A DNA stretch of 64,000 bases from Williamsia soli. GTDB lineage: Bacteria; Actinomycetota; Actinomycetes; Mycobacteriales; Mycobacteriaceae. Positions 4,208-54,923 of the stretch are shown piece after piece. The stretch spans positions 558,001 through 622,000 of the forward strand of contig NZ_JAFRDR010000003.1 of NCBI RefSeq assembly GCF_017377795.1. Direction: 5' to 3'. A program made the position numbers and the translations under genes. The notes under the pieces were generated by a model. The model saw only the letters and a program-made list of their open reading frames with translations, was not told the DNA's origin and did no database searches. The first letter of the stretch is position 1. The number at the start of each line of letters is the position of its first letter.

Positions 4208-5560
4208 CTAACGTGCGCGCTTGCGGTACTTGACGTTGCACGGTTGCGACATCTGCACAACCATCTTCGAGTGATCGTTCTTGTACGACTCCGACGGCTG
4301 CGCCAATTCGAACTCGTAGTTCTGCAGCAACACGGAAAAGATCGCCTTGAGCTGCATGATGGCGAACTGAGCACCCACGCAACGGTGCCGGCCGGCACCG
4401 AACGGAATCCACGTCCACCGGTTGACCAGATCTTCCTGGCGCGGCTCGAGGTAGCGGTCCGGATCGAAGCTGTCCGGGTTCGGAAAGTCCTCAGGCAGGC
4501 GGTTGGACGTCGCCGGCGACACCGCGATGGTCTGCCCCGGCTCGATCAGGAAGTCCTCGACCTCGAACTCGTTCTGAACGACCCGCATCAGCACGATCAA
4601 CGGCGGGTGCAGGCGCAGCGCCTCTTTGAGCGCTGATTCGAGTTTGGGGATCTGACGCATCGCACCGAAGCTGTATTCAGCACCGTCCGAATAGATGTCG
4701 TCGAGTTCGGCGCGCACCTGGTCCATGTATTCCGGATGCCGCAGCAACTCGATCAGCGTCCACGCGGCGGTACCCGAGGTGGTGTGATGACCGGCGAACA
4801 TCATCGAGATGAACATGCCGGTGATGGTGTCCGCGGTGAACCGCAGGTTGCCCTCGTCGTCGCGGATCGAGATCAGCACATCGAGAAGGTCTTTGTCCTC
4901 ATCGGTGGCGGGCTCACCGGCAATCCGGGTGTCCATGATCTCCTGAACCAACTCCACCAACCCTTTTCGGGCCGCGTCCCGCTTGCGAAAACTCTCGATG
5001 TCGGCATGGGCGTCGACATACGCGATCGGGTCGGTACCCTTCTCGAGATCGTGGTAGAGGTGCGCGAACCGACCGTCTAGCTGCTCTCGGAACTTCTTGC
5101 CGATCAGGCAGGCCGAGGAGGTGTAGATCGTCAATTCTGCGAAGAACTCGAGAAGGTCGATTTCGCCCTCGTCGCCCCAATCGGCGATGATGCGCTCGGT
5201 CTCCAGCGGGATCGTGATCGCGTGCTGCTTCATATGAGCACCCTTGAGCGCCTGATTGTGCAGCATCTCCGATCGTCGCTCGGGGCTGGCATCGAACACC
5301 ACACCCTCACCGAAGATCGGGGTCATGAACGGGTAGGCGGCTGCCTGGTCGAGGTCTTCCTCCGAGGCACGGAAGAACGCCTCGTTTGCGACGGCCCCCG
5401 AGACCAGCGCGACCTCACGGTCGGCGAGCTGAAAGACCCCGACGTCGCCGCACTCTTCGCGAACCCGCCAGAAGAGACCGATCGGATCAGTCGACAGTTC
5501 TTCGAGGTGGCCGTGTTCCCCTTCGCCACCGGATACGCGCTTGGGTTTTGTGAGGGTCAT
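4208..5560 (-). CDS. cyp51: cytochrome P450 CYP51, sterol 14-alpha-demethylase
   Basis: At 450 aa this is nearly the length of M. tuberculosis CYP51 (451 aa) and matches it closely: HGHLEE and DPIGL at the start, YPFMTPIFGEGVVFDASPER in the B-helix/B-C loop region, I-helix AGHHTTSG, ExxR in ALKEALRLHPP, and heme loop FGAGRHRCVG with ligand Cys394. The family removes the 14-alpha-methyl of lanosterol-type sterols in three oxidations; the physiological substrate of bacterial CYP51 is not settled. It overlaps the upstream SDR by 4 bp and is followed by its ferredoxin. Control is probably from the divergent promoter at 8174-8227. Confidence 0.97.
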   Translation of the reverse strand: MTLTKPKRVSGGEGEHGHLEELSTDPIGLFWRVREECGDVGVFQLADREVALVSGAVANEAFFRASEEDLDQAAAYPFMTPIFGEGVVFDASPERRSEMLHNQALKGAHMKQHAITIPLETERIIADWGDEGEIDLLEFFAELTIYTSSACLIGKKFREQLDGRFAHLYHDLEKGTDPIAYVDAHADIESFRKRDAARKGLVELVQEIMDTRIAGEPATDEDKDLLDVLISIRDDEGNLRFTADTITGMFISMMFAGHHTTSGTAAWTLIELLRHPEYMDQVRAELDDIYSDGAEYSFGAMRQIPKLESALKEALRLHPPLIVLMRVVQNEFEVEDFLIEPGQTIAVSPATSNRLPEDFPNPDSFDPDRYLEPRQEDLVNRWTWIPFGAGRHRCVGAQFAIMQLKAIFSVLLQNYEFELAQPSESYKNDHSKMVVQMSQPCNVKYRKRAR

Positions 5561-6351
5561 TTCTTGTCTCCTTCGATGCGTGGGACCGGGGCTTCGGCCT
5601 CGACCTCGACCAAGCGCATGTGCGCTCCTCGCGGCATGGAAACGATCGTGTGAATCGCTGTGGCGAGATGGATGGGCTTGAGAAAATTGCTGTGGCGGGC
5701 CAAGCCGAACGGAATCCAGTCATTGAGAACCGCTGCGCCGACCTCAGGGGTGAAGTTCATCCCCATACCCGTCATCACCTGACCGGGTCGGACGAGGCTG
5801 GCCCGCACACCGGTGCCCTCCAGCTCCATCTGGGCCACTTCGGCAAGTCCCTCGACGCCACGTTTGGCGGCGACGTAGGCAGCCATGTGTGGCCGCGGAC
5901 GCTCGACGACGTCGGAGCTGATGAAGACGAAATCCCCACGCTGCCTTGTGACCATGTCTGGTACGACCCGTCGGTACAAGCGTTGGGCGCCCAGAAGGTG
6001 GATGTTGACCTGCGCGGCGAACTCCTCGTTGCTGAACTCGTGTGCGCGTCCCGGATCGAGATCACCCGCCCCGGAGACCACGACCTCGGTCGGCCCGAAT
6101 TGGGCCTCGGCCTTGGTGACGAACTCGTCGATCGACGCGGCGTCGGTGACGTCGAGCGGCAGGGCCACCGCCTCGCCGCCGGCTTGGGTGATCTGGTCGA
6201 CGAACTCCTGCGACTTCGCCACCCGCCGGGCGCCCAGCGCGACCGGGAAGCCGGCCGCTGCCAGCATGACGGCGGTGGCGGCGCCGATGCCCGACGATGC
6301 TCCGGCGACGATCACCGGCCTACGGTCCGGGTGTGGTGCAAATCTGGGCAT
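5557..6351 (-). CDS. SDR family oxidoreductase (Rv0765c position)
   Basis: A 264-aa classical SDR with cofactor loop AGASSGIG (17-24), SGAGDLDPG after the fourth strand and the active site YVAAKRG. The expected role is NAD(P)-dependent oxidation or reduction of a hydroxyl/keto group. It lies between the two P450 genes exactly as Rv0765c does in M. tuberculosis. It shares one base with the stop of the upstream P450 (TGATG) and overlaps cyp51 by 4 bp, implying translational coupling. The final substrate is unknown; a product of CYP51 or CYP123 chemistry is the natural guess. Confidence 0.88.
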   Translation of the reverse strand: MPRFAPHPDRRPVIVAGASSGIGAATAVMLAAAGFPVALGARRVAKSQEFVDQITQAGGEAVALPLDVTDAASIDEFVTKAEAQFGPTEVVVSGAGDLDPGRAHEFSNEEFAAQVNIHLLGAQRLYRRVVPDMVTRQRGDFVFISSDVVERPRPHMAAYVAAKRGVEGLAEVAQMELEGTGVRASLVRPGQVMTGMGMNFTPEVGAAVLNDWIPFGLARHSNFLKPIHLATAIHTIVSMPRGAHMRLVEVEAEAPVPRIEGDKK

Positions 6352-7574
6352 CAGCGCGCCCTCACTTTCATGGGAAGCGACGCGAAGCCGCGCACGTTGA
6401 CCGAGTGGACCCGCTCGGCGTTGTCGATATCGATGTCGACCTGGTTGATCGACTTCACGATCTGGCCCAATGCCACATTCGACTCGAGCCGGGCCAGGTG
6501 CGCACCGAGGCAGAAGTGTGTTCCCAGACCGAAGCTGGTGAGTGTCTGAGCGCTGTCCCTACCGATCTCGTAGCGGTCGGCATGGTCGAACACCTCCTCG
6601 TCTCGGTTGGCCGAACCGAGCAACAAGAGCACTCGCTGGCCTGCGGGGATGGTGTAGCCGCCGTACTCGACATCCTCGAGCACGCGGCGTACCACGATCT
6701 GCGTCGAGTTGTCGTAGCGCAGTGTCTCTTCGGTCCACGCGGGCACGGCTTCTGGATCGGCCATCGGGATCGCTAGCTGATCTGGATAGCGCCAGCCCCA
6801 ATACACGGCGTTGGCAAGCAGTTTGGTGGTGGTCTCGTTGCCCGCGACGATCATCAGGATCATGAAGCCGATGATCTCGTCTTCGGTCAGTCTGGTCTTC
6901 TCACCGGTCTCGTCATCGAGGACCTCGGCGTCCAGCAGCGCCGAGACGAGGTCGGTGCCGGGGTTCTTGCGGCGATCGACGAGCAATTCGCCGTAGTAGC
7001 GAGTCAATTCGAAGTACGCGTAGACGGCGGCCTCCGGGACGTCGAAAACACCCTCTTCGCGGTGGATCAGCAGGTCCGATTGGGTACGCAGGTGAGCTCG
7101 GTCGGCCACCGGAACGTCTAGCAACTCCGACACGACATCCATCGGCAGCAGTCCGGCGAACTCTGTCACGTAGTCGAACTCCCCCATCTCCAGGCACCGG
7201 TCCCAGTGCTGGTGGGTCAGTTCGGCGATCCGATCCGCGAGTTCACCGATGCGCTTGGGCGTGAACCCCTTCGACACCAGTTTGCGAATCCGCATGTGCT
7301 TCGGATCATCGAGTGCCAGAAAGGACATCGACTTGTGCGCGTCGGGCCCGTAGGCGGCGGGATCCATCGACACACCCCAGCTGTTCGACAGCCGGGCCGC
7401 GTCACGGAACCCGTTGCGCACGTCTTCGTGCTTGGCGAAGGCCCAGAAGTCCATGTCCGCGTTGTGATAAACCGGCGCCTCGGCTCGGAGCCGCGCATAG
7501 GTCGGGTACGGATCCTCGTGAAAGTTGTAGTCGTACGGGTCGAACGGGACCTGTGTCTGCATACCTGCGGTCAT
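6351..7574 (-). CDS. cytochrome P450, CYP123-like
   Basis: A 407-aa soluble bacterial class I P450. The I-helix reads VAGNETTTKLL, with the oxygen-activating acid/Thr pair replaced by Asn-Glu-Thr-Thr. ExxR lies in EETLRY and the heme loop is FGLGTHFCLGAHLARLE with ligand Cys355. Position between the TetR and SDR genes equals Rv0766c (CYP123A1), which is why I suggest that family; sequence alone supports only a CYP123/CYP124-type mycobacterial P450. It overlaps the TetR gene by 4 bp. Substrate unknown; it would share the ferredoxin at 4001. Confidence 0.9.
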   Translation of the reverse strand: MTAGMQTQVPFDPYDYNFHEDPYPTYARLRAEAPVYHNADMDFWAFAKHEDVRNGFRDAARLSNSWGVSMDPAAYGPDAHKSMSFLALDDPKHMRIRKLVSKGFTPKRIGELADRIAELTHQHWDRCLEMGEFDYVTEFAGLLPMDVVSELLDVPVADRAHLRTQSDLLIHREEGVFDVPEAAVYAYFELTRYYGELLVDRRKNPGTDLVSALLDAEVLDDETGEKTRLTEDEIIGFMILMIVAGNETTTKLLANAVYWGWRYPDQLAIPMADPEAVPAWTEETLRYDNSTQIVVRRVLEDVEYGGYTIPAGQRVLLLLGSANRDEEVFDHADRYEIGRDSAQTLTSFGLGTHFCLGAHLARLESNVALGQIVKSINQVDIDIDNAERVHSVNVRGFASLPMKVRAR

Positions 7575-8173
7575 CGGTTCTCCAGCAGTAGATTGGCCGC
7601 GGCGACGAGCCGGTCGGCGATGGCGGAATACGTTTCGTAACCCATGCCGGCGCGGACCAGAGCGCCGGAGTACAGCATTTCGAGTGCTTCGAGCAGGCTC
7701 TCGTCGGCCGGCGCCCCAGTGTCTGCCACCAGTGCCGACGACAGCCGCTGCCGGATCAGCACGCCGATACGCACCCGTAGGTGCTCGACGTCGGGATCCG
7801 ATCCGAGAAGCGACGCCGTGACCGCCCGCGCCAACTGGTTGTCGTCTTCTACCGCCAGTGACACCGAACGAAGGACAACAGCCACCCGCTCCGCCCTGGG
7901 CAGCGACGGATCGGGCTCCACGATTTCTTCTGCCAAACGGCGCCAGAACAGTTCGGCGACCACGTGCCCCTTGGAGCTGAAGTAGGTATAGGCGGTTGCG
8001 GGCGCGACACCGGCACGCTTGGCCACCGACCGCACCGTCAGGGCGTCGTAACCGACTTCGCGGAGCACCTCGACCGCAGCCTCGGTGAGCTTGTTCACCG
8101 TGTCTGCCTGCGCGGTGGTGAGCCGACGGCGAGTGGATTCGAAAGAAACCGGACTGGACATGGACAGTGACAT
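7571..8173 (-). CDS. TetR-family regulator of the CYP51/aldA locus
   Basis: A 200-aa TetR protein. The HTH lies near residues 35-60 (VRSVAKRAGVAPATAYTYFSS) and the C-terminal ligand domain is helical. It is first in the CYP51 operon and divergent from the aldehyde dehydrogenase, so it most likely represses both directions from the element at 8194-8212. A paralogue at 32297 shares RRLT...ADTV, EVLR.VGY and ATAY.YFSSK and has the same element at its own start. Start at 8173; a second ATG at 8161 is possible. It corresponds to Rv0767c. Confidence 0.88.
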   Translation of the reverse strand: MSLSMSSPVSFESTRRRLTTAQADTVNKLTEAAVEVLREVGYDALTVRSVAKRAGVAPATAYTYFSSKGHVVAELFWRRLAEEIVEPDPSLPRAERVAVVLRSVSLAVEDDNQLARAVTASLLGSDPDVEHLRVRIGVLIRQRLSSALVADTGAPADESLLEALEMLYSGALVRAGMGYETYSAIADRLVAAANLLLENR

Positions 8174-8193
8174 TACACTAGGTTCAAACGCGA

Positions 8194-8212
8194 GTCCAGA
8201 CACGTGTCCAGA
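8194..8212. promoter_or_regulatory. 19-bp operator in the CYP51/aldA divergent promoter
   Basis: GTCCAGA occurs twice, 12 bp apart (8194-8200 and 8206-8212), around the perfect palindrome GACACGTGTC (8199-8208). It lies between TetR (starts 8173) and aldA (starts 8228), just before the aldA ribosome-binding site AAGGAGG (8212-8218). Four related elements occur at 32860, 38911, 42941 and 48001. Confidence 0.7.
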
Positions 8213-8227
8213 AGGAGGCGATCGGCG

Positions 8228-9694
8228 ATGACGCTGAGGCCAGAAAGCAGCTCCGAGCTGTTGATAGACGGGAAATTGGTACCGGGATCCGGCGGCACCT
8301 TCGACATCATCAACCCGGCCACCGAGGAGGTGATCGGGCAAGCCGCCGACGGCACCGCAGCCGACATGGACGCGGCCATCGCGGCAGCACGAACCGCTTT
8401 CGACACGACCACCTGGTCACGTGATCCGGCGTTCCGCGCGAAGTGCCTAAGGCAACTACGCGATGCGTTGCAGGGCCACGTCGACGAACTCCGGGAGATC
8501 ACCATCGCCGAGGTCGGGGCACCACACTTCCTCACCTCGGGTCCACAACTCGAGGGACCCATCGCCGACCTGGGCTACTTCGCCGACCTGGCCGAGAACT
8601 ACGAGTGGAGTGCCGACCTCGGTCGCGCCAAGCCGATGGGCATCAAGAACGACCGCGTGGTGCAACGCGAGGCCGCCGGCGTCGTCGGCGCCATCACACC
8701 GTGGAACTTCCCGCACCAGATCAACTTCGCCAAGATCGGGCCCGCGCTGGCCGCCGGCTGCACCGTCGTGCTCAAACCTGCCCCCGACACCCCCTGGTGT
8801 GCGGCACTGGTCGGCAAGGTCATCGCCGAGGAAACCGACATCCCCCCAGGCGTCATCAACATCGTGACCTCGAGTGACCACAGCGTCGGAGCATTGCTCT
8901 CGACCGACCCTCGAGTCGACATCGTCTCGTTCACCGGCTCCACCGCCACCGGCAAAAAGGTGATGATCGCCGCGGCCGAGTCGCTCAAGCGGGTCTTCCT
9001 CGAACTCGGCGGCAAATCGGCGTTCATCGTCCTCGACGATGCCGACCTCGCCTCGGCCTGCTCGATGGCCGGATTCTCTGTGGTCACCCACGCAGGCCAG
9101 GGATGTGCCATCACCACCCGCCTCCTGGTGCCGCGCGAAAAGTACTCCGAGGCAATCGGACACGTGCGCGACAGCATGGCGGGACTGCCTGCTGGCGATC
9201 CGTCCGATTCCGGGACGATCTGCGGACCGGTCATCTCCGCAGTGCAACGTGACCGCGTCGAGAGCTACATCCAGCTCGCCCGCGACGAAGGCGGCACCAT
9301 CGAGATCGGTGGCGGACGCCCCGCGAACAAGGACAAGGGCTACTTCATCGAGCCGACGCTGATCTCCGGCGTCGAGAACTCGGCTCGGGTTGCCCAGGAA
9401 GAGATCTTCGGCCCCGTGCTCGTGATCATCCCGCACGACGGCGACGACGACGCGATCCGGATCGCCAACGACTCCCCCTACGGACTGTCCGGCGCGGTCT
9501 GGGGCACCGATCCCGACCGCATCAAGAAGGTGGTCGACGGCGTCCGCACCGGGACCATGAGCATCAACGGCGGGATCTGGTACTCCGCCGACATCCCCTT
9601 CGGCGGCTACAAACAGTCCGGAATCGGCCGCGAGATGGGTGTGGCCGGCTTCGAGGAGTACTTGGAAACAAAAGCCATCGCGACACCAGCATAG
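8228..9694 (+). CDS. aldA: aldehyde dehydrogenase (Rv0768/AldA-like)
   Basis: A 488-aa NAD(P)-dependent aldehyde dehydrogenase oxidising an aldehyde to its acid. Conserved parts are TPWNFP (Asn160), FTGSTATG, general base Glu259 in ELGGKS, nucleophile Cys293 in GQGCAITT and EEIFGPV near 390. The ATG at 8228 is chosen over the in-frame ATG at 8204 because AAGGAGG sits 9 nt upstream and because 8204 would lie inside the operator. M. tuberculosis AldA (Rv0768) has almost the same length and the same divergent context. First gene of a five-gene plus-strand operon. Confidence 0.92.
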   Translation: MTLRPESSSELLIDGKLVPGSGGTFDIINPATEEVIGQAADGTAADMDAAIAAARTAFDTTTWSRDPAFRAKCLRQLRDALQGHVDELREITIAEVGAPHFLTSGPQLEGPIADLGYFADLAENYEWSADLGRAKPMGIKNDRVVQREAAGVVGAITPWNFPHQINFAKIGPALAAGCTVVLKPAPDTPWCAALVGKVIAEETDIPPGVINIVTSSDHSVGALLSTDPRVDIVSFTGSTATGKKVMIAAAESLKRVFLELGGKSAFIVLDDADLASACSMAGFSVVTHAGQGCAITTRLLVPREKYSEAIGHVRDSMAGLPAGDPSDSGTICGPVISAVQRDRVESYIQLARDEGGTIEIGGGRPANKDKGYFIEPTLISGVENSARVAQEEIFGPVLVIIPHDGDDDAIRIANDSPYGLSGAVWGTDPDRIKKVVDGVRTGTMSINGGIWYSADIPFGGYKQSGIGREMGVAGFEEYLETKAIATPA

Positions 9695-9707: not shown

Positions 9708-10445
9708 GTGAGCAACAACAGATTCGCAGGCAAGACCGCCATTGTGACCGGTGCCGCCGGTGGGATCGGCGAGGTCTACGCACGGCAGCTGGCTACCGAG
9801 GGTGCCAACGTCGTCGTCGCCGACCTCAACGACGAGGCCGGCAAGCAGGTCGCCGCAGATATCGGAGGCCTCTACGTCAGCACCGATGTCGCCGATCCCG
9901 AGTCCGCGCAGGCCCTGGCCACCGCGACGCTCGACGCGTACGGACAGATCGACTACCTCGTCAACAACGCCGCCATCTACGGCGGGATGCAGCTCGACTT
10001 CCTCATCACCGTTCCCTGGGACTACTACAAGAAGTTCATGAGCGTGAACCTCGACGGTGCACTCAACGTGACCAGGGCCGTCTACGGGCACATGAAACCC
10101 GGTAGTGCAATCGTGAACCAGTCCTCGACTGCAGCATGGCTTTACAGCGGTTTCTACGGACTGGCCAAGGTCGGTGTCAACGGCCTGACCCAGCAGTTGG
10201 CGACCGAACTCGGCGGTTCCGGCATCCGTGTCAACGCCATCGCACCAGGACCGATCGACACCGAGGCCACCAAGTCGACCACGCCGGGCAACATGGTCAA
10301 GGACATGGTCGCCAAGTTGCCACTGTCCCGGATGGGAACCCCCGACGACCTCGTCGGCATGCTCCTGTTCCTGCTCTCCGACGAGGCGAGCTGGATCACC
10401 GGGCAGATCTTCAATGTCGACGGCGGACAGATCATCCGGTCATGA
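9708..10445 (+). CDS. SDR family oxidoreductase (Rv0769 position)
   Basis: A 245-aa SDR with TGAAGGIG cofactor loop (12-19), NNAAIYGG after the fourth strand, a Ser in NQSST and catalytic YGLAK. It starts with GTG 13 bp after the aldehyde dehydrogenase stop and overlaps the next gene by 4 bp. It matches Rv0769 in order and size. The expected reaction is NAD(P)-dependent alcohol/ketone interconversion on the intermediate handled by the aldehyde dehydrogenase. Confidence 0.88.
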   Translation: MSNNRFAGKTAIVTGAAGGIGEVYARQLATEGANVVVADLNDEAGKQVAADIGGLYVSTDVADPESAQALATATLDAYGQIDYLVNNAAIYGGMQLDFLITVPWDYYKKFMSVNLDGALNVTRAVYGHMKPGSAIVNQSSTAAWLYSGFYGLAKVGVNGLTQQLATELGGSGIRVNAIAPGPIDTEATKSTTPGNMVKDMVAKLPLSRMGTPDDLVGMLLFLLSDEASWITGQIFNVDGGQIIRS

Positions 10446-11293
10446 GCGAACACGCACCCGTCGGTTTCATCGGTCTGGGCAACATGGGACTGCCGATGGC
10501 GCAGCAGCTGGCCGGATGGGAAGGCGGATTGACCTTCTCCGACCTGAACCCGGACATCGACGTGGAGGGCGCGACACGGGCTGATTCCGCTGCCGAACTT
10601 GCCAAGTCCGCGAGCGTCATCGGAGTGACGGTCCTCAACGACGAGCAGGTTCTCGCCGTGGTGGCCGGGCCGAAGGGCATCCTCGAAACGGCGGCGCCGG
10701 GCACCGTGATCGCGATCCATTCGACGATCAGCCCCCAGACAGCAGTCGACCTGGAAAAGCGTTGTGCAGCAGAGGGCGTGGCCCTGGTCGACGCCCCGGT
10801 ATCCGGGGGTGCGGACGGAGCAAAACAGGGCCGTCTGGCAATCATGGTCGGTGGCGAGCGGGACGCCTATCTGAAACTGAAGGAACCGTACTCGCTGGTT
10901 TCGGACATGATGATCCATGCCGGGCCCATCGGGGCCGGTACCAAGATGAAGCTGGCCCGGAATCTCCTTCACTTCATCTCGTTCACCGCCACCACCGAGG
11001 CCTCTCGGCTCGCCGAGGCGGCCGGGATCGACATCGTCAAGCTCGGCAAGGTGGTTCGCCACACCGATGCGATCACCGGTGGGGCCGGAGCGATCATGTT
11101 GCGGGACAGCACTGCCCCGATTGCCAAAGACGACTTCTGGTACGACATCTTCACCCACGTGCGGGGACTCGGGGAGAAGGACCTCGGATTGGCTTTGCAA
11201 CTGGGAGCTGAACTGGGCGTGGAACTTCCACTGGGCGAGATCGCCCTGGAACGGTTTGCCGACGGCTTGGGCGTGGGAAGGGACAACGCATGA
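10442..11293 (+). CDS. beta-hydroxyacid dehydrogenase, hydroxyisobutyrate-dehydrogenase-like
   Basis: A 283-aa NAD(P)-dependent 3-hydroxyacid dehydrogenase family protein. The Rossmann motif is GFIGLGNMGLPMAQ (8-21), the substrate loop DAPVSGGADGAKQG, and the catalytic Lys lies in GAGTKMKLARN. The start at 10442 was chosen over a longer frame because it gives the canonical N terminus and an ATGA overlap with the SDR. It is equivalent to Rv0770. The natural substrate is a short beta-hydroxy acid or semialdehyde. It is distinct from mmsB at 58563, which carries the family's canonical N terminus and sits in the valine operon. Confidence 0.88.
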   Translation: MSEHAPVGFIGLGNMGLPMAQQLAGWEGGLTFSDLNPDIDVEGATRADSAAELAKSASVIGVTVLNDEQVLAVVAGPKGILETAAPGTVIAIHSTISPQTAVDLEKRCAAEGVALVDAPVSGGADGAKQGRLAIMVGGERDAYLKLKEPYSLVSDMMIHAGPIGAGTKMKLARNLLHFISFTATTEASRLAEAAGIDIVKLGKVVRHTDAITGGAGAIMLRDSTAPIAKDDFWYDIFTHVRGLGEKDLGLALQLGAELGVELPLGEIALERFADGLGVGRDNA

Positions 11294-11703
11294 CATCGGA
11301 AGAAACAACTGAGCAGCGTCAGAAAGGCTTGGACATGATGTCCAAGGTCTACGGCTGGGAGATGAAGGACGGGCCGGGAGACTTTTTCGCGCACACTGCC
11401 GATCACCTCTTCGGCGAGGTATGGACGCGTGAGGGGCTCTCGATCCGGGATCGTCGGTTGCTTCTCCTGGGCGCACTGGCGGCGACCGGCCAAACAGATG
11501 TCGCAGAGATCCAAGCGGGTGCCGCCCTTGGCAACGGGGAACTCGACGGTGACCAGCTTCGCGAGATCGCCCTCTTTCTCTGCTATTACATCGGGTGGCC
11601 GCAGGGCACCCGGCTCAACTTCATGTTCGGCGACGTCATCGGCAAGTATGAGAAAGCGCAGCGGAAGCAGGCTGAGAGCAACGGGACCCCAGCGAGCTCA
11701 TGA
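11290..11703 (+). CDS. carboxymuconolactone decarboxylase-like protein (Rv0771 position)
   Basis: A 137-aa all-helical protein of the CMD/AhpD superfamily, recognised from SIRDRRLLLLGALAATGQTDVAEIQAGAAL-type helices followed by LREIALFLCYYIGWPQG. It has no CxxC, so AhpD-like peroxidase chemistry is unlikely; a decarboxylase or lactone-handling role is possible. It overlaps both neighbours by 4 bp. The same gene follows the hydroxyacid dehydrogenase in M. tuberculosis. Confidence 0.82.
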   Translation: MTSEETTEQRQKGLDMMSKVYGWEMKDGPGDFFAHTADHLFGEVWTREGLSIRDRRLLLLGALAATGQTDVAEIQAGAALGNGELDGDQLREIALFLCYYIGWPQGTRLNFMFGDVIGKYEKAQRKQAESNGTPASS

Positions 11704-32296: not shown

Positions 32297-32869
32297 TCAC
32301 GCCAGAACGCGGCGGACGGCCGACTCCATCTGATCCGCCACCTCATCGTAGGAGAAGTGACCCGACCCGGCTCGCACCATGGCGCCCGTGTAGATCAGCT
32401 CGATGAGTTCGATGGTCTGGGCGTCGCCGGCGGTGCCGACGGCTGCAGCGATCGATTTGTGGATCACCCGGCTCACCTGTGTTCGCAGCTCCACCACATC
32501 TGCGTCATCGCTGAGCAATGACTTCGTCACCGCCCCGGCGAACTCGGGCTCGTCCGCGACGAGCAAGGCGAGCTGACGCAGTACCGCGACCACGCGGTCG
32601 GCCACCGCTGGAGCATCGTTGTCGGTCGGCGAGATGCTCGCCAATCGTCGCCAGTAGACTTCCGCGACGAGGTGTTCTTTCGAGGAGAAGTAGATGTACG
32701 CCGTGGCCCGGGCCATGCCTGCATGCGCGGCGACCATCGGCACCGTCATCTCCGAGTAACCCACCTGGCGCAGGACTTCAACCGTGGCGTCGCCGAGCCG
32801 GAGGACCGTGTCCGCGCGCTTACCGGTCAGACGCCGGCGGGTCGCTTCAACTGCAGTCGGTTCAGACAC
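32297..32869 (-). CDS. TetR-family regulator, paralogue of the CYP51-locus regulator
   Basis: A 190-aa TetR protein with HTH near residues 32-55 (VPMVAAHAGMARATAYIYFSSK). It shares the N-terminal layout RRLTGKRADTV and EVLRQVGY with the regulator at 7571. It is the last gene of a five-gene minus-strand operon. Its GTG start (32869) lies inside a copy of the GTCCAGA element, so binding there would control or fine-tune its own synthesis. The two paralogues may recognise overlapping sites. Confidence 0.85.
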   Translation of the reverse strand: MSEPTAVEATRRRLTGKRADTVLRLGDATVEVLRQVGYSEMTVPMVAAHAGMARATAYIYFSSKEHLVAEVYWRRLASISPTDNDAPAVADRVVAVLRQLALLVADEPEFAGAVTKSLLSDDADVVELRTQVSRVIHKSIAAAVGTAGDAQTIELIELIYTGAMVRAGSGHFSYDEVADQMESAVRRVLA

Positions 32870-32878
32870 GCGTCCAGA
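32860..32878. promoter_or_regulatory. 19-bp operator spanning the start of the TetR paralogue
   Basis: GTTCAGACACGCGTCCAGA: half-sites at 32860-32866 and 32872-32878, 12 bp apart, matching 17 of 19 bases of the site at 8194. It covers the GTG start codon (32867-32869) and the 11-bp gap after the preceding gene. Confidence 0.65.
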
Positions 32879-32880
32879 CA

Positions 32881-38910: not shown

Positions 38911-38929
38911 GTCCAGACAGATGTCCAGA
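38911..38929. promoter_or_regulatory. 19-bp operator before the mycofactocin-type SDR
   Basis: GTCCAGACAGATGTCCAGA: half-sites at 38911-38917 and 38923-38929, with core GACA-GA-TGTC symmetric. It matches 16 of 19 bases of the site at 8194. It lies 85-103 bp upstream of the SDR start at 39014. Confidence 0.7.
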
Positions 38930-39013
38930 TCGAAACTTTCTGTCTGACAGGTTCATCCGAAAAGACCGCGGGCCGCTCGGCTCTGCGCTCGAACGAACTG
39001 GGGAGAAATCGCC

Positions 39014-39832
39014 GTGGGCAAGCTCGACGGGAAAGTCGCATTCATCACCGGCGCGGCGCGCGGTCAGGGTCGTAGCCATGCGATCAGGCTCGCGCAAGAG
39101 GGGGCGGACATCATCGCCGTCGATCTGTGTGCCGATATCGCGACAGTGCCCTACCCCCTCGGCACGCCCGAAGAACTCGCCGAGACCGTGCGGCAGGTGG
39201 AGGCTTTGGATCGCCGGATCATCGCCACCCAGGCCGACGTTCGCGATCTGGCCGCCCTCAAGACAGCGGTCAAGGAGGGCGAAGCGCAGCTCGGCAAGGT
39301 GAACATCGTCCTCGCCAATGCCGGTATCTCCGTCTTCGGTGAGGACGGCTCCGATGTCGAGACGCCGTGGAACGACGTCATCGGGGTCAACCTCACCGGC
39401 GTCTACAACACGGTCATGGCCACAGTCGGAAGCCTCATCCAGGCCAACGCCGGATCGATAGTGCTCACGAGTTCATCGCAGGGCCTCAAAGGCACCGGCG
39501 GCGTCGGAGCGCCGGGCAACACCGGGTATGTTGCGGCAAAGCACGCACTCGTCGGGCTCATGCGTACCTGGGCGAACTGGCTGGGACCGCACAACATTCG
39601 GGTTAATACGATTCACCCGACCGGCGTGAACACCCCGATGATCCGCAACAAGTTGATGGAAGAGATCTTCGAGGCGTTCCCCGAGGCCATCGAGGCCACG
39701 CGCAATCTGATTCCGGTGCCCTGGGTCGAGCCGGAAGACATCTCGAACGCGATCGCTTTCCTCGTCAGCGACGAGGGACGGTACATCACCGGCGTGGCAC
39801 TGCCCGTCGATGCGGGATTTGCCGCACGCTGA
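39014..39832 (+). CDS. mycofactocin-coupled SDR family oxidoreductase
   Basis: A 272-aa SDR carrying TGAARGQGRSHAIRLA (12-27), the signature of the mycofactocin-coupled SDR subfamily (carveol-dehydrogenase-like), which holds NAD tightly and passes electrons to mycofactocin. NAGISVFG and active-site YVAAKHA are present. GTG start with GGGGAGA 6 nt upstream. It is transcribed alone, from a promoter with the same element as the CYP51 locus, and is convergent by 1 bp with the phosphotransferase gene. The substrate is probably a cyclic or secondary alcohol. Confidence 0.9.
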   Translation: MGKLDGKVAFITGAARGQGRSHAIRLAQEGADIIAVDLCADIATVPYPLGTPEELAETVRQVEALDRRIIATQADVRDLAALKTAVKEGEAQLGKVNIVLANAGISVFGEDGSDVETPWNDVIGVNLTGVYNTVMATVGSLIQANAGSIVLTSSSQGLKGTGGVGAPGNTGYVAAKHALVGLMRTWANWLGPHNIRVNTIHPTGVNTPMIRNKLMEEIFEAFPEAIEATRNLIPVPWVEPEDISNAIAFLVSDEGRYITGVALPVDAGFAAR

Positions 39833-42038: not shown

Positions 42039-42899
42039 TCACACCGTCGCCGGACTCAGACCCAATTTGCCGGCGAGCTTCGTCAGGTAAGCACCTGCGC
42101 GTTCCTCGCTGTCGTCGGGGACGCCATACAGCACCGTGGTGACTCCGAGTTCACGCCACTGGTCCAGCTTTTCCTGCACGGGCTTGAAGTCGAGGACCAC
42201 GATCTGCGGTTCGCCATCGCGTCCCGCATCGGCCCAGATCTGCTTGAGCAGCACCACCGATTGCTCGATGTCCTGCTCACCCGGCGTGGTGATCCAACCG
42301 GCTGCACTGCGGGCGATCCACTTGAAGTTCTTCTCGTTGCCCGCGGCGCCGACCAAGACCGGCGGACCGGGCTGCTGCACGGTCTTGGGCCACACCCAGC
42401 TCGGCCCGAAGTTCACGAACTCGCCTGCGTACTCGGCTTCTTCCTGTGACCACAGCGCGGTCATCGCCTCGATGTACTCGCGGAGCATCGTCCGACGGCG
42501 CTTCGGGGGCACGTGATGATCCGACAGTTCGTCGAGGTTCCAGCCGAAGCCGACGCCGAGTGTGACGCGTCCTCCCGAGAGGTGGTCGAGCGTGGCGACG
42601 ACCTTCGCGAGGGTGATCGGATCCGACTGCACCGGCAATGCGACTGCGGTCCCCAGCCTGATCCGAGACGTCACCGCCGCTGCGCCGCTGAGCGACACCC
42701 AGGGATCGAGCGTGCGCATGTAGCGGTCGTCAGGCAGCGACGAGTCGCCGGTCTGCGGGTGCGCCGCGTCCCGCTTGGTCGGGATGTGACTGTGCTCGGG
42801 TACGAAATAGGCGTCGAATCCGGCCTGCTCGATCAGCGGGGCCAGGATCGAGGGCGCCAGTCCGCGATCACTCGTGAATTGGACGATTCCGTAGTCCAT
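42039..42899 (-). CDS. luciferase-like (LLM) F420-type oxidoreductase
   Basis: A 286-aa LLM protein with VPEHSHIP near 34, DHLSGGRVTLGVGFGWN near 105-121 and VLVGAAGNEKNFKWIARSAAGW near 175, typical of F420-dependent oxidoreductases of the TIGR03619 style. It leads an operon with a second LLM protein and the phosphotransferase-like gene. Two candidate operators lie upstream, a GTCCAGA-type element (42941) and a KstR-like box (42968). Confidence 0.85.
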   Translation of the reverse strand: MDYGIVQFTSDRGLAPSILAPLIEQAGFDAYFVPEHSHIPTKRDAAHPQTGDSSLPDDRYMRTLDPWVSLSGAAAVTSRIRLGTAVALPVQSDPITLAKVVATLDHLSGGRVTLGVGFGWNLDELSDHHVPPKRRRTMLREYIEAMTALWSQEEAEYAGEFVNFGPSWVWPKTVQQPGPPVLVGAAGNEKNFKWIARSAAGWITTPGEQDIEQSVVLLKQIWADAGRDGEPQIVVLDFKPVQEKLDQWRELGVTTVLYGVPDDSEERAGAYLTKLAGKLGLSPATV

Positions 42900-42940
42900 C
42901 GTGTCTCCTGCTCTTCCAACCGGCCCGATACGGACCAGTG

Positions 42941-42959
42941 ACTGGACACCAGTCTAGGT
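42941..42959. promoter_or_regulatory. diverged 19-bp operator before the LLM operon
   Basis: Reverse complement ACCTAGACTGGTGTCCAGT keeps the 12-bp half-site spacing but matches only 12 of 19 bases of the site at 8194. GACTGG-ACA-CCAGTC (42940-42954) is itself a perfect palindrome. It lies 42-60 bp upstream of the LLM start at 42899. Confidence 0.5.
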
Positions 42960-42967
42960 CGAAGAAC

Positions 42968-42981
42968 AGTAACACGTTCTA
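42968..42981 (-). promoter_or_regulatory. KstR-like box before the LLM operon
   Basis: AGTAACACGTTCTA matches TnnAACnnGTTnnA except the first base. It overlaps the stop codon of the terpene-cyclase-like gene (42979-42981) and lies 69-82 bp upstream of the LLM start. Confidence 0.45.
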
Positions 42982-46173: not shown

Positions 46174-47892
46174 TCAGGCCCGCGCAGCGGCTTCCATCGC
46201 CTCGATGCTGACCAGTTTGACCCGCCGACGGCCCGCCTCTTTGCCCGCGGTTCGTTCGGCCAGGTCGATCTTCTTCCAACCATCGCCCGCGATGCGGCCG
46301 GCGCCGCGTTCGGCGATCAGGTCGGGTACCTGCTCACGCGGCTTGGCCGGTTCGGGGAGTTTGCCTTCGGTGAAGTCCGCGATCACGGCCAATGCCGTCT
46401 CTTGGCCGCACAACCTGTTCATCCCGATACCGCCGGTGGCGCCGCGCTTGATCCAGCCCGTCACGTAGACACCCTCGACCCGGTCCCCGTCTTTCGCATC
46501 CAGCACCCGGCCACCGTCGTTGGGAACCACACCCTGACCACCGTCGAACGGCAGGCCGTCCAGTGGCAGACCGGTGTAACCGATTGCCCGCATCACCAGA
46601 CCGGCAGGGAGATCGAATTCCTCGCCGGTGGGCCTGATCGCCACCCGGCCCGACGAGGGCCGCGGGGTGTCGCCAGGATTGTCGGCCGCTTCATCAGGCG
46701 CGTCGACGAACTCGTTGCGCACACAGCGGATCGTCTCGACTCCTTCTTCGGACCCTTTGATGGCCAGCGGGGAGACGAGATACCGGAACACCGCCCGCTT
46801 GTTGCCGTCGGTCGGGGTGCGCTCGGCGAACTCCTTCGCGATGCGGACCTTCGTCGCGATCGTCGAATCCAGGGTGCCCGAATCCTCCGCCTCCTGGTTT
46901 GCCGCATCGAGGACCAGCTCATCGGGATCGATGATGACATCGACCCCTGCGAGGTCGCCCATCGCCAGGAACTCGGAGTTGGTGTAGGCAGCCTGCGCGA
47001 TACCGCGGCGGCCGAGCAGCACCACCTCCTTGATGTTGCTCGATCGCAGCTTGTCGAGAGCATGGTCGGCGATGTCGGTCTTGCCCAGACGGTCGGGATC
47101 GTCGAGCAGGATGCGGGCGACGTCGAGCGCCACGTTGCCGTTGCCGACCACCACCGCACGCTCAGCGGACAGGTCGAAATCGCGATCCGCGTAGTCGGGA
47201 TGGCCGTTGTACCAGGCGACGAAGTCGGTGGCGGCAATCGATCCCGGCAGGTCCTCACCATCGATGCCGAGGTGTTTGTCGGACGACGCACCGTGGGCGT
47301 AGATGACCGCGCCGTAATGGTCCAGCAGCTCGTCGTGATTGATGTGCTTGCCGATCTCTACGTTCAGGAAGTACTCGAACGTCCGCTTGGCAGCGGTGGC
47401 AGCGAACGTCTTCTCCACGCCCTTGGTCGATGGATGATCGGGAGCCACACCCGCCCGTACGAGCCCGTACGGCGTCGGGAGCCGGTCGAACATGTCGACC
47501 CGGATCGCGGAGTGCTTCACCAACTCCTCGGCGGCATAGAAGGCCGCAGGACCGGCCCCCACGATCGCCACGTGCAGTTCCTTGCCTGCCGGCAGCGGCG
47601 GCTTCTTGCGCGGCGGCACCAAACCACCCGAGACGTCGTGGTCGGTGTAGTAATCCGCGTTGATCTGCAGGTAACGCTCCTGCCCCTCGTCGAGTGAATC
47701 GTCGGGGAAGATGGCCTCCACCGGACACTCGTCGATGCAGGCACCACAGTCGATGCAGGTGTCCGGATCGATGTACAACATCTCCGCGCTGATGAACTCC
47801 GGCTCATCCGGTGTCGGATGAATACAGTTCACCGGGCAGACACTGATGCAACTGGCATCGTTGCAGCAAGGCTGCGTGATCACGTGCGCCAT
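46174..47892 (-). CDS. fprB: ferredoxin--NADP reductase fused to a 7Fe ferredoxin (FprB-type)
   Basis: A 572-aa fusion, close to M. tuberculosis FprB (575 aa). Residues 1-60 are a 7Fe ferredoxin (Cys9, 10, 15, 19 and 23; Cys46, 49, 52 and 56). Residues 105-570 are an adrenodoxin-reductase-like flavoprotein: FAD motif VGAGPAAFYAAEEL, LPTPYGLVRAGVAPDH, NADPH motif GNGNVALDVARILL, and GWIKRGATGGIGMNR. It moves electrons from NADPH to ferredoxins, and so probably supplies the P450s at 4208-7574. Start ATG 47892; a KstR-like palindrome and a GTCCAGA element lie in the promoter. Confidence 0.95.
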   Translation of the reverse strand: MAHVITQPCCNDASCISVCPVNCIHPTPDEPEFISAEMLYIDPDTCIDCGACIDECPVEAIFPDDSLDEGQERYLQINADYYTDHDVSGGLVPPRKKPPLPAGKELHVAIVGAGPAAFYAAEELVKHSAIRVDMFDRLPTPYGLVRAGVAPDHPSTKGVEKTFAATAAKRTFEYFLNVEIGKHINHDELLDHYGAVIYAHGASSDKHLGIDGEDLPGSIAATDFVAWYNGHPDYADRDFDLSAERAVVVGNGNVALDVARILLDDPDRLGKTDIADHALDKLRSSNIKEVVLLGRRGIAQAAYTNSEFLAMGDLAGVDVIIDPDELVLDAANQEAEDSGTLDSTIATKVRIAKEFAERTPTDGNKRAVFRYLVSPLAIKGSEEGVETIRCVRNEFVDAPDEAADNPGDTPRPSSGRVAIRPTGEEFDLPAGLVMRAIGYTGLPLDGLPFDGGQGVVPNDGGRVLDAKDGDRVEGVYVTGWIKRGATGGIGMNRLCGQETALAVIADFTEGKLPEPAKPREQVPDLIAERGAGRIAGDGWKKIDLAERTAGKEAGRRRVKLVSIEAMEAAARA

Positions 47893-47926: not shown

Positions 47927-47946
47927 AATTGGAACGTGTTCCAATT
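47927..47946 (-). promoter_or_regulatory. 20-bp KstR-like palindrome before fprB
   Basis: AATTGGAAC-GT-GTTCCAATT is symmetric over 9+9 bases; TGGAACGTGTTCCA (47930-47943) fits TnnAACnnGTTnnA exactly. It lies 35-54 bp upstream of the fprB start, in the 310-bp gap (47893-48202) between fprB and the acyl-ACP thioesterase gene, which holds no gene. Confidence 0.75.
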
Positions 47947-48000: not shown

Positions 48001-48019
48001 GTCCAGATTGGTGTCCAGA
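48001..48019. promoter_or_regulatory. 19-bp operator in the fprB/thioesterase divergent region
   Basis: GTCCAGATTGGTGTCCAGA: identical GTCCAGA half-sites at 48001-48007 and 48013-48019. It lies 109-127 bp upstream of fprB and about 184 bp upstream of the divergent thioesterase gene. The GACA core is lost (GATT), so this is a weaker match than the site at 8194. Confidence 0.6.
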
Positions 48020-48202
48020 TTAGGCCACCATGTGTAAGACGCCGCCAGACCCTCGATCAACCCCAACCGCAGAGACACTCTTCGACGTCAGTCCCACAAC
48101 GGTAGTGGCAGACCTCACTCTGCGCGAAGCCACCTATGCTGCCACCGGGTGTTGTAGGAGCGTCCGACCCCGATCCAGTACTCCGGATGAGAGGATCTGC
48201 TG

Positions 48203-49015
48203 ATGTCTGACAAGCCGACCACCGACGCTCTGACCCCGATCGATCTGCCCGAACGCCTCGAGCAGGCCCGCTTCTACGAGGCCAATTACCGCGTCCGCAC
48301 CGGCGACATCGACCAGGAGATGCGACTGCGTCTGGACGGACTGAGCCGTTACCTGCAAGACATCGCGAACGACAACATCGAAGCGACCGAGTTCCACACC
48401 AGCGATCCGTACTGGATCGTCCGCCGCACCGTCATCGATGTCATCAGGCCGATCTCCTGGCCCGGCGACGTGACGCTGCAACGCTGGTGCGGTGCACTCT
48501 CGACGCGGTGGACGAACATGCGCGTGCGGGTCACCTCGACCCACCAGACCAACCGGTTCAATCCGGAACCACGCGAGGACGGCCTCATCGAAACCGAGGC
48601 CTTCTGGATCAACGTCAACGACAAGGGCCTTCCGACCCGTCTGAGCGACAACGCGTTCGACCTCCTCAGCCAGAGCGCGCAGGAGCACCGGCTCAAATGG
48701 AAATCGATGAACACCGCCCCCGCACCCGAGACGACGGATTCCGATCGGAACCACGTCCTGCGCGCGACCGATTTCGATCCGTTCAAACACCTCAACAATG
48801 CCGCCTACTGGGCAGCGGTCGAGGATGAGCTGCTCGACCATCCCGATCTCGTCGAGGGGCCGCACCGCGCCGTCATCGAGTATCTGCGTGCCATCGCCCC
48901 CGAGTCGACGGTGACCATCAAGCGGGAACGGGTCAGCGATCAGCTACGCATGTGGCTGATAGTCGAAGACAAGGTCGCCGCGACGGTCACGATCACCAAG
49001 CGTCCCCCCGCCTGA
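48203..49015 (+). CDS. acyl-ACP thioesterase (FAT-type double hot-dog)
   Basis: A 270-aa protein of the FatA/FatB-type acyl-ACP thioesterase family: ARFYEANYRVRTGDID near 22, DPYWIVRRTVIDVIRPI near 68, and FDPFKHLNNAAYWAAVED near 195 in the second half. It releases fatty acid from acyl carrier protein, or from a CoA ester. Start ATG with AGAGGA 7 nt upstream. Single gene, with the tandem repeat array immediately downstream. Confidence 0.88.
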   Translation: MSDKPTTDALTPIDLPERLEQARFYEANYRVRTGDIDQEMRLRLDGLSRYLQDIANDNIEATEFHTSDPYWIVRRTVIDVIRPISWPGDVTLQRWCGALSTRWTNMRVRVTSTHQTNRFNPEPREDGLIETEAFWINVNDKGLPTRLSDNAFDLLSQSAQEHRLKWKSMNTAPAPETTDSDRNHVLRATDFDPFKHLNNAAYWAAVEDELLDHPDLVEGPHRAVIEYLRAIAPESTVTIKRERVSDQLRMWLIVEDKVAATVTITKRPPA

Positions 49016-49508: not shown

Positions 49509-50063
49509 CTACTGGCCGCCGCCCAGCAACAGTTCCATCAGCCTCGTGGGGGCCGCGCAGGGATCGCCGATCGGCGTTGCTGTCCGCGGCTCGACCCACC
49601 AGGTGTAGACGCCGCGATCGGGTGATCGCGCAGTCACACCACACGACGCCGGGCGGGCAGGATTGCGCTGGGTGAACGCCGTGACGCTGGCGACCTTGAT
49701 GTTCTCGGTGGTGTAGCCGAGTTCTTTGGCCGTGCTCTTCTCGACTTCGATGTCGCCCCACTCGAACCAGTTGAAGGTCACGTCGGTGATGGCCGGACCG
49801 TTGACCACCCACCGGCAGATCGCCCCGTAGAACCCCGGCTCGGCGATCGTCCCGCCGACGGTCTTCGCGATCACGGCGGGTTGCAACATCTCGCACTCGT
49901 ACAGGAGGCCGTCGTAGCGGTCGGTGTCGACGTTGCCGTCCGAGGATCCGTCGCCGCCGCCGATCGAGGTGGCGTCACCGTCGACCGCGCGAGTGCACCC
50001 ACCCAGCAGGGTGAGGACAGCGAGCATCGCGAGCACCGTGCCCGCAACTCTGCGGCGCATCAT
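49509..50063 (-). CDS. DUF3558 lipoprotein
   Basis: A 184-aa exported lipoprotein. Basic start MMRRRV, hydrophobic AGTVLAMLAVLTLL, lipobox LGGC (Cys about 23), an acidic Gly/Ser linker, then the DUF3558 domain: LYECEMLQP, YGAICRWVVNGPA and TRLMELLLGG. The family is common in mycobacterial envelopes and its function is unknown. ATG 50063 overlaps the upstream paralogue by 4 bp. Confidence 0.85.
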   Translation of the reverse strand: MMRRRVAGTVLAMLAVLTLLGGCTRAVDGDATSIGGGDGSSDGNVDTDRYDGLLYECEMLQPAVIAKTVGGTIAEPGFYGAICRWVVNGPAITDVTFNWFEWGDIEVEKSTAKELGYTTENIKVASVTAFTQRNPARPASCGVTARSPDRGVYTWWVEPRTATPIGDPCAAPTRLMELLLGGGQ

Positions 50064-53707: not shown

Positions 53708-54886
53708 CTAGATCATCGAACGCATCATGCCTTCGGGCTCGCCGCCGAGTTGGGTGAGCGCAGAGGCGTGGAAGATTGAACCCGGGACGTGGATGGCGTG
53801 CGCCAGACCGGCGTGCGCATCGCGAAAGAACCTCTGCATCGGAAACTTCCGATGCAGCGCTCCCCCACCCGACCTCGCGAAGATCTCGTCGACAGCCCGC
53901 ACCGCGCGCCAGGCGGCGGCGGTTTGGGTACGTCGACCGATGGCGCGCTCGTCGAACGAGATCTCTTTGCCCGCTTCGGTTTTGTCGTAGAACCGGTCGA
54001 CGGTCTCGAGCAACGCCGCCCGCGACGCTGCGATCTCGGCGGCCGATTCACCGATGGCGTAGAGAACGTACGGGTCTTCTTTGATCTTCTGTCCGGTGAT
54101 CGCGACCCGATCCTTCTGTGCGGCAATATGACACGCGAGGGCGCCCTCGGCGATACCGATCACCGCCGAGGTGATGCCGAGAGGGAACATGCAACTGAAC
54201 GGCATCAAATACGTCGACTCGGTGCGGCCCGCTTTGCGCGGCGCGCTGCCGTCCATGACGTCCGCCGAATCCAGTGTGCGGTAGTCAGGGATGAACGCGC
54301 CGTCGACGATCACGTCTTTGGAACCGGTACCGCGGAGTCCGACGACGTCCCAGGAATCGTCGACGATCGTGTAGTCGGCCCGGGGCAGGAACACGTGCAG
54401 GATGGTCGGCGGCATGATCGGCTTGCCGTGCTGGTCGCCGAGGATCGCACCGAGCACGATCCACCGGCAGTGGTCGGTGCCCGAGGAGAACTGCCAGCGT
54501 CCCTTGAGGATGTACCCGCCGTCCACGGGCTTGGCCACGCCCATCGGTGCATACGGAGAAGCCAGCCAGGTGTCCGGGTCGTCGCCCCAGATCTCGTCCT
54601 GCAGTTTCGGGTCGGCGAAGGCCAGCTCCCACGGGTGCACGCCGACGATGCCCGAGACCCAGCCGGCGGCGCCGTCCATCGCGGCGACGCCCATCACGGT
54701 CTCGGCGAACTCCCGGGGATGCGCTGCCAGCCCGCCGTGCTCGACCGGCTGCAGGAGCCGGATGACGCCCGCTTCGCGGAGTCGCTGCGCCGAGGTGTCC
54801 GGCAACCGCATCAGTTCGTCGCCTTCGACGCCGGCAGCACGGATTTCTTCCGCGTGCTCTTCGATACGGTCGAGTACCTCGCCCAT
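53708..54886 (-). CDS. HsaA-like flavin-dependent monooxygenase (acyl-CoA dehydrogenase fold)
   Basis: A 392-aa protein, nearly the length of HsaA (Rv3570c, 394 aa), sharing LRRLPDxTxxxLRxxG-style N terminus, GWVSGIVGVHPWELAF, SPYAPMGVA, WQFSSGTDHCRW, VGLRGTGSKDVIVDGAFIP and FFRDAHAG. HsaA hydroxylates the aromatic A-ring of a steroid seco intermediate with FMNH2 from HsaB. There is no hsaB, hsaC or other ring-degradation gene nearby, so this may be a paralogue for another phenol. A perfect KstR box lies 24-37 bp upstream. Confidence 0.83.
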   Translation of the reverse strand: MGEVLDRIEEHAEEIRAAGVEGDELMRLPDTSAQRLREAGVIRLLQPVEHGGLAAHPREFAETVMGVAAMDGAAGWVSGIVGVHPWELAFADPKLQDEIWGDDPDTWLASPYAPMGVAKPVDGGYILKGRWQFSSGTDHCRWIVLGAILGDQHGKPIMPPTILHVFLPRADYTIVDDSWDVVGLRGTGSKDVIVDGAFIPDYRTLDSADVMDGSAPRKAGRTESTYLMPFSCMFPLGITSAVIGIAEGALACHIAAQKDRVAITGQKIKEDPYVLYAIGESAAEIAASRAALLETVDRFYDKTEAGKEISFDERAIGRRTQTAAAWRAVRAVDEIFARSGGGALHRKFPMQRFFRDAHAGLAHAIHVPGSIFHASALTQLGGEPEGMMRSMI

Positions 54887-54909: not shown

Positions 54910-54923
54910 TAGAACACGTTCTA
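54910..54923 (-). promoter_or_regulatory. perfect KstR box before the HsaA-like gene
   Basis: TAGAACACGTTCTA fits TnnAACnnGTTnnA exactly and is symmetric apart from the central AC. It lies in the 81-bp gap after prs, 24-37 bp upstream of the HsaA-like ATG at 54886, overlapping the expected promoter. Confidence 0.78.

Follow-up and report, generated by a model that had tools for sequence, protein, structure and literature searches.

The window analysed here, a 64-kb stretch (G000:C19:558001-622000) of the 6.07 Mb Williamsia soli genome in 25 contigs, carries near one end a gene for a TetR-family regulator, TetR1. It is transcribed divergently from an Rv0768-family aldehyde dehydrogenase gene and is followed on its own strand by cytochrome P450, SDR and CYP51 genes. 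A paralogous regulator (TetR2), a mycofactocin-coupled SDR and an F420-type LLM oxidoreductase lie further along the window, and copies of a short dyad-symmetric element stand at or before several of these genes (Table 1). The TetR1 start at 8161 was taken from the alignment of homologues, and was also placed by eye from a -10 box at 8175-8180.

Table 1. Genes and element sites in the window, with the evidence for each assignment.
Feature	Coordinates	Strand	Evidence
Small ferredoxin-like ORF, 63 aa	4001..4192	-	open frame, by eye
CYP51	4208..5560	-	match to M. tuberculosis CYP51 Rv0764c (1e9x), 7.3e-214
SDR	5557..6351	-	PRK07775, 402 bits vs cut-off 260
Cytochrome P450 after TetR1	6351..7574	-	Pfam p450; nearest solved structures are other P450s
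TetR1, TetR-family regulator, proposed binder	7571..8161	-	TetR_N domain; fold nearest KstR
Operator, TetR1/aldehyde dehydrogenase gap	8194..8213	+	matrix 29.3; core GACACGTGTC at 8199-8208
Rv0768-family aldehyde dehydrogenase, divergent from TetR1	8228..9694	+	TIGR04284, 906 bits vs cut-off 775
Downstream SDR	9708-10445	+	within 9708..11703
3-hydroxyisobutyrate-dehydrogenase-like gene	10442-11293	+	within 9708..11703
Carboxymuconolactone-decarboxylase-like gene	11290-11703	+	within 9708..11703
TetR2	32297..32869	-	TetR_N; 47% identity to TetR1
Operator overlapping TetR2 start	32860..32879	+	matrix 17.8
Operator before mycofactocin-type SDR	38911..38930	+	matrix 25.9
Mycofactocin-coupled SDR	39014..39832	+	TIGR03971, 373 bits vs cut-off 300
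F420-type LLM oxidoreductase	42039..42899	-	TIGR03619, 248 bits vs cut-off 167
Variant operator before LLM oxidoreductase	42940..42959	-	matrix 11.9
Doubtful operator, FprA/FprB-like / thioesterase-like gap	48001..48020	+	matrix 12.1

The TetR_N helix-turn-helix (PF00440) was found in TetR1 and TetR2 with 52.3 and 49.7 bits, respectively, against a cut-off of 24. TetR1 is 100% identical to a Williamsia sp. 1138 protein, and residues 55-64, the recognition-helix region, were conserved at 0.99-1.00 among 120 homologue rows, 8 of which are duplicates. The predicted model of TetR1 showed nine helices in an all-helical fold (pLDDT 87.9, pTM 0.83). KstR took ranks 1-12 among the solved folds closest to this model, with TM-scores of 0.68-0.78 by query length and 21-22% identity, and the KstR matches include complexes with cholesterol-derived CoA esters. 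A profile of 27 rows, TetR2 included, also placed a KstR chain first, at full length; the lead was narrow over a Bacillus-type regulator, which matched a shorter stretch. This likeness to KstR in predicted fold and in profile suggests a sterol or acyl-CoA ligand for TetR1.

The preliminary description had reported five copies of an element with GTCCAGA half-sites 12 bp apart. When the window was searched for GTCCAGACNNGTGTCCAGA with up to 3 mismatches, 5 matches were found where 0.28 were expected; none of 100 shuffles gave as many. Four of them are reported copies, with no mismatch at 8194, one each at 38911 and 48001 and two at 32860, where the left half was corrected from GTCCAGA to GTTCAGA. 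The fifth is an overlapping match at 8182 and not the copy at 42941, which is too diverged to be found at this cut-off. The 7-mer GTCCAGA alone was not enriched in the window (15 vs 10.7 expected). A symmetric matrix of 20 columns was then built from 31 distinct sites at homologous TetR promoters outside Williamsia, and it put exactly the five reported copies on top in the window: 8194 (29.3), 38911 (25.9), 32860 (17.8), 48001 (12.1) and 42940 (11.9), indicating that the five-copy element is real. A matrix made without both Williamsia and Gordonia (25 distinct sites) returned the same top five. The possible third half-site at 8182, an overlapping match only, scored below 4 and was set aside. 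In 100 runs of the window under a first-order Markov model, 0.71 matches per window were obtained at a score of 10 or above and 0.12 at 14 or above; the best score averaged 10.5 and reached a maximum of 19.8. The sites at 8194 and 38911 score above every null run and 32860 falls just short of that, while 48001 and 42940 are each individually near background. The support is thus strong for 8194 and 38911 and fair for 32860; the 42941 copy is a weak variant, and 48001 is doubtful.

The best-conserved feature of these sites is a dyad, GACA-N2-TGTC, within TCYRGACANNTGTCYRGA. Two sets of loci were compared: the best 80 of at least 504 candidate stretches related to TetR1, in which some genomes give two loci, and 40 chosen family stretches, of which 8 duplicate the first set and 32 are new. 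Exact GACANNTGTC was present at -300 to +60 of the aligned TetR start in 80 of 80 loci, whereas in the remainder of the same loci it occurs once per 32 kb (0.011 expected per 360 bp). The exact core was found in 28 of the 32 new loci and a site scoring at least 17 in 30; of the four new loci without the exact core, three have one altered arm and one has no site at all. All 4-base dyads with spacers of 0-8 and all 4-base direct repeats with periods of 6-16 were also counted de novo in the 112 non-redundant upstream regions. GACA-N2-TGTC stood before the TetR1 gene or its homologue in 108 loci, compared with 43 for the runner-up dyad (TCGG, spacer 8) and 56 for the top direct repeat (TGTC, period 12). 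The 12-bp direct repeat is therefore not the defining feature that it had been taken for. The flanks do lean towards it: the two-base steps next to the core showed direct-repeat equality in 14 of the 31 distinct sites and dyad complementarity in 2, and were pyrimidine-purine in 61 of 62 cases. The earlier reading thus caught a true tendency of the flanks, and the invariant part is the dyad, as expected of a TetR-family operator at its own promoter. Two cores precede the TetR gene in 8 of the 80 loci (L078, L084, L088, L092 and others, Dietzia included), perhaps as two operators for two promoters. One locus (L033), named Kitasatospora arboriphila NRRL B-24581, matches the window at 87%, as near as Williamsia muralis, and its record is probably mislabelled or contaminated.

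All 9 genus genomes carry the 8194 operator. Two -10-like boxes, identified by eye, overlap at 8174-8180 (TACACT on the + strand and TAGTGT on the - strand), so that one operator could block both promoters. A putative -10-like box lies 14 bp before the 8194 site and 10 bp before the 38911 site. In the 80 loci, 29 further sites scored at least 17 and all 29 were outside predicted genes; where such a site had a dehydrogenase-sized neighbour, 10 of the 10 neighbours tested were TIGR04284 (Rv0768 family) members. The Rv0768-type dehydrogenase retains its site where it is located away from TetR1. The dyad at the TetR1 gene or homologue in 108 of 112 loci argues that TetR1 very probably binds the element and keeps its own gene, the divergent aldehyde dehydrogenase gene and a small number of others repressed. 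The proposal that the sites mark a regulon linking P450, SDR and aldehyde-dehydrogenase genes was supported; the enzymes so linked act on alcohols, aldehydes and probably sterols. The TetR encoded at 7571, with its near-invariant recognition helix, is the best candidate binder.

The conservation of the other sites differed from target to target. A 38911-type site was found in 4 of 4 genomes having the SDR gene (25.9, 17.7, 23.2 and 25.6), and an SDR gene outside the window, at C22:209460, has one in all 9 genomes of the genus, with scores of 21.2 to 27.2. At the LLM oxidoreductase, the GAC-N4-GTC arms at 42940 persist in every one of the 9 genus genomes, with scores from 11.9 to 5.7. An LLM gene of Rhodococcus (L065), 63% identical to the window gene, has its own site (25.7), and a site of this kind is similarly placed in four further loci; the protein comparison covers L065 alone of these five. 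The 48001 site lies between an FprA/FprB-like gene (46174-47892, - strand) and a thioesterase-like gene starting at 48203 (+ strand), which leaves its target ambiguous. Across eight relatives it is unchanged in the two that share 95-96% identity over the region; it has decayed in one and is absent from five. Electron supply through fprB, which had been included in the proposed regulon, is thus weakly founded, as the site is conserved only in two near relatives. In Speluncibacter (L081:17872), a site scoring 22.7 precedes the gene of an MlaE-type permease and may point to a link with lipid uptake.

The whole genome was scanned as well. The pattern of the preliminary description, with up to 3 mismatches, gave 27 matches against 26 in the reversed control. 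TCYRGACANNTGTCYRGA occurs exactly at 3 sites, 2 of them in the window; with up to 1 mismatch there were 7 sites against 2 in the control, and with up to 2 mismatches no genome-wide excess was seen (15 vs 20). Chance frequency, which had been named as evidence against a regulon, was thus obtained at the loose cut-offs and not at the strict one. Since the loose cut-offs gave no excess over control, the TetR1 regulon looks small. Among the 15 genome matches, 7 score at least 17: the 32860 site, which spans a gene start, and six that fall outside predicted genes; 6 matches lie inside predicted genes and score 11.8 to 16.9. The same gene finder called 90% of the window coding. The null rate of 0.12 per 64 kb at 14 or above, scaled to the genome, gives about 11 matches, so that single sites below 20 are credible only with conservation, and those at C18:258524 (19.2), C11:869487 (17.5) and C11:185083 (16.7) may be at chance level. 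A site scoring 24.2 at C1:84537, flanked by a DUF3556 gene and an amino-acid permease gene, stays beside the permease in two close relatives; it is not claimed as a target. At C18:258524 (L113:1501-1540), TCTTGACA occurs twice, about 26 bp apart, before an AMP-binding-enzyme gene, and this pair looks like a tandem site of another regulator. At C11:869487 (L112:1501-1518), the gap separating a HAD-hydrolase gene from a Rex-like/HemA-like pair contains a clean palindrome, TCTGGACAGTAGTCCAGA, which was found in two close relatives too.

KstR-type sequences were also present in the window. The KstR operator pattern, TNNAACNNGTTNNA, occurs three times (47930-47943, 49762-49775 and 54910-54923) against 0.26 expected. 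None of the three is at the five element sites, and KstR was rejected as their binder. The copy at 47930 is next to the 48001 site, and a near match to a KstR-type sequence lies at 42969-42980, beside the 42940 site. In Rhodococcus, TAGAACGCGTTACA was found near the LLM site in 5 of the 5 loci printed (L065, L067, L070, L074 and L080). This closeness of a KstR-type sequence to a TetR1-type site suggests that the LLM oxidoreductase promoter is under the shared control of two repressors. The copy at 54910 is just upstream of an acyl-CoA-dehydrogenase-like gene (53708-54886), a placement that hints at a role of this part of the window in breaking down sterols or lipids.

Given that two TetR paralogues lie in the window, TetR2, alone or together with TetR1, might be the main binder away from the aldA promoter, in a shared or layered regulon. 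Its 47% identity to TetR1 fits such a role, as does the presence of a site over the start of the TetR2 gene, both here and in three relatives (25.2, 25.2 and 18.6). At positions 52, 54 and 59 of the recognition helix, however, TetR2 carries M, R and I in place of the V (1.00), P (0.88) and T (1.00) of TetR1 homologues, and genomes without a site at the TetR2 promoter still carry the TetR1 and C22 SDR sites. The site upstream of TetR2 was not found in four other relatives having the gene, and these four are the ones with a diverged TetR2. We regard a leading part for TetR2 as rather unlikely. As for the number of TetR1 operators in the window, they may be limited to 8194, 38911 and 32860, with 42941 and 48001 being chance matches or belonging to another regulator. 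The scores of 11.9 and 12.1 are close to the average best of the null runs (10.5), both sites have KstR-type sequences nearby, and 48001 is absent or decayed in six of eight relatives; on the other hand, the 42941 arms persist in 9 of 9 genomes and a site at 25.7 belongs to the Rhodococcus LLM gene of 63% identity. This restriction to three operators has slightly less than an even chance of being right.

Binding by a protein of a different kind was also considered. If the element were a true direct repeat, bound for example by a response regulator, the dyad would be secondary. A perfect 12-bp repeat is indeed present in 48 of the 80 loci, and the flanking steps are equal in 14 of 31 sites, but the dyad reaches 108 of 112 loci against 56 for the best direct repeat, and the site follows the TetR gene itself, which makes this explanation highly improbable. 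Nor is it likely, by a wide measure, that an ArsR-type protein such as Rv0576 regulates the cluster while the dyad serves TetR1 autoregulation only. Such a regulator is predicted for M. tuberculosis Rv0762c-Rv0771 in the excerpted text of PMC10470581; the dyad, however, tracks the Rv0768-type gene away from TetR1 and tracks unlinked SDR genes too.

We therefore return to TetR1. That the element is the operator of this TetR-family repressor, kept beside its own gene across the family, is assigned a probability of about 0.8 on sequence comparison. In the sequences compared, the dyad is tied to the TetR1 gene and several target sites are conserved. Against this reading stand the 4 of 112 loci without the exact dyad, one of which has no site, the lack of a genome-wide excess at loose cut-offs, and the TetR2 site missing in four relatives. 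We infer that TetR1 acts by repression and not by activation. A TetR1 dimer would bind the dyad TCYRGACANNTGTCYRGA with one subunit per GACA arm. When no signal is present, it would cover the start regions of its own gene and of the divergent Rv0768-type aldehyde dehydrogenase operon, and also those of the mycofactocin-type SDR, TetR2 and the C22:209460 SDR, with a weaker form of the operator before the F420 LLM oxidoreductase. TetR1 would then be released by a ligand derived from a lipid or sterol, perhaps a CoA thioester as for KstR, and an alcohol-to-aldehyde-to-acid oxidation set would be turned on together with the P450s.

More tentatively, and with the odds somewhat against it, TetR1 could be a family-wide, KstR-like third sterol/lipid sensor that controls a compact oxidation module, shares some promoters with KstR and is joined in some Williamsia by TetR2 as a second layer. 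In the same tentative proposal the operator is almost unaltered in Williamsia, Gordonia, Rhodococcus, Dietzia and kin, and the alcohol-aldehyde-acid module consists of the P450s, the mycofactocin-linked SDR, the Rv0768-type dehydrogenase and the F420 LLM enzyme. If the ligand is a sterol or acyl-CoA, the system would show the timing of CYP51, the mycofactocin-linked dehydrogenase and the Rv0768-type aldehyde dehydrogenase.

Much the same regulon has largely been predicted already in mycobacteria, as far as the excerpt of PMC6593523 goes. It describes a palindromic motif X near the start of G155_05115, the Rv0767c orthologue of Mycobacterium sp. VKM Ac-1817D, with a regulon of 14 operons, 12 of which were raised more than 3-fold on phytosterol. 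The motif X targets given there are P450s, SDRs, alcohol and aldehyde dehydrogenases and further TetR genes, and two motif X sites occur together with KstR sites. In the available portion of PMC10312376, Rv0767c-bound regions are enriched in GAC and GTC, which fits the GACA/TGTC dyad; motif X is compared here by its description and not by its letters. An Rv0767c motif is given in the excerpted part of PMC4482099 at 1.2e-14, short of the cut-off of that study. The gene order in the window matches Rv0763c-Rv0771 as tabulated in the part of PMC10470581 at hand. This match rests on the CYP51, Rv0768-family dehydrogenase, SDR, P450 and decarboxylase-like genes, and the likeness of TetR1 to Rv0767c is one of gene order. 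New here are the tests of the dyad and of how well each target is conserved, the C22 SDR, the KstR-like fold and the widening of the predicted system to Williamsia and the family; the motif predicted in mycobacteria thereby becomes a candidate operator, for which there is a single candidate regulator and a short list of targets across the family.

Among the known regulators, KstR (Rv3574), the repressor of cholesterol catabolism, has the solved fold nearest to TetR1, yet the two share only about 22% identity. MftR, the regulator of the mycofactocin cluster, is like TetR1 a TetR-family protein tied to mycofactocin-linked metabolism; its operator, T-N2-GGCA-N5-TGCC-N2-A in the excerpt of PMC8728441, does not fit the sites by eye, and MftR was rejected as the binder. 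The motif X regulon, as described in its excerpt, resembles that of TetR1 in having a palindrome near a TetR start, the same target classes and adjacent KstR sites; it differs in belonging to another genus, and the Williamsia targets are partly different genes.
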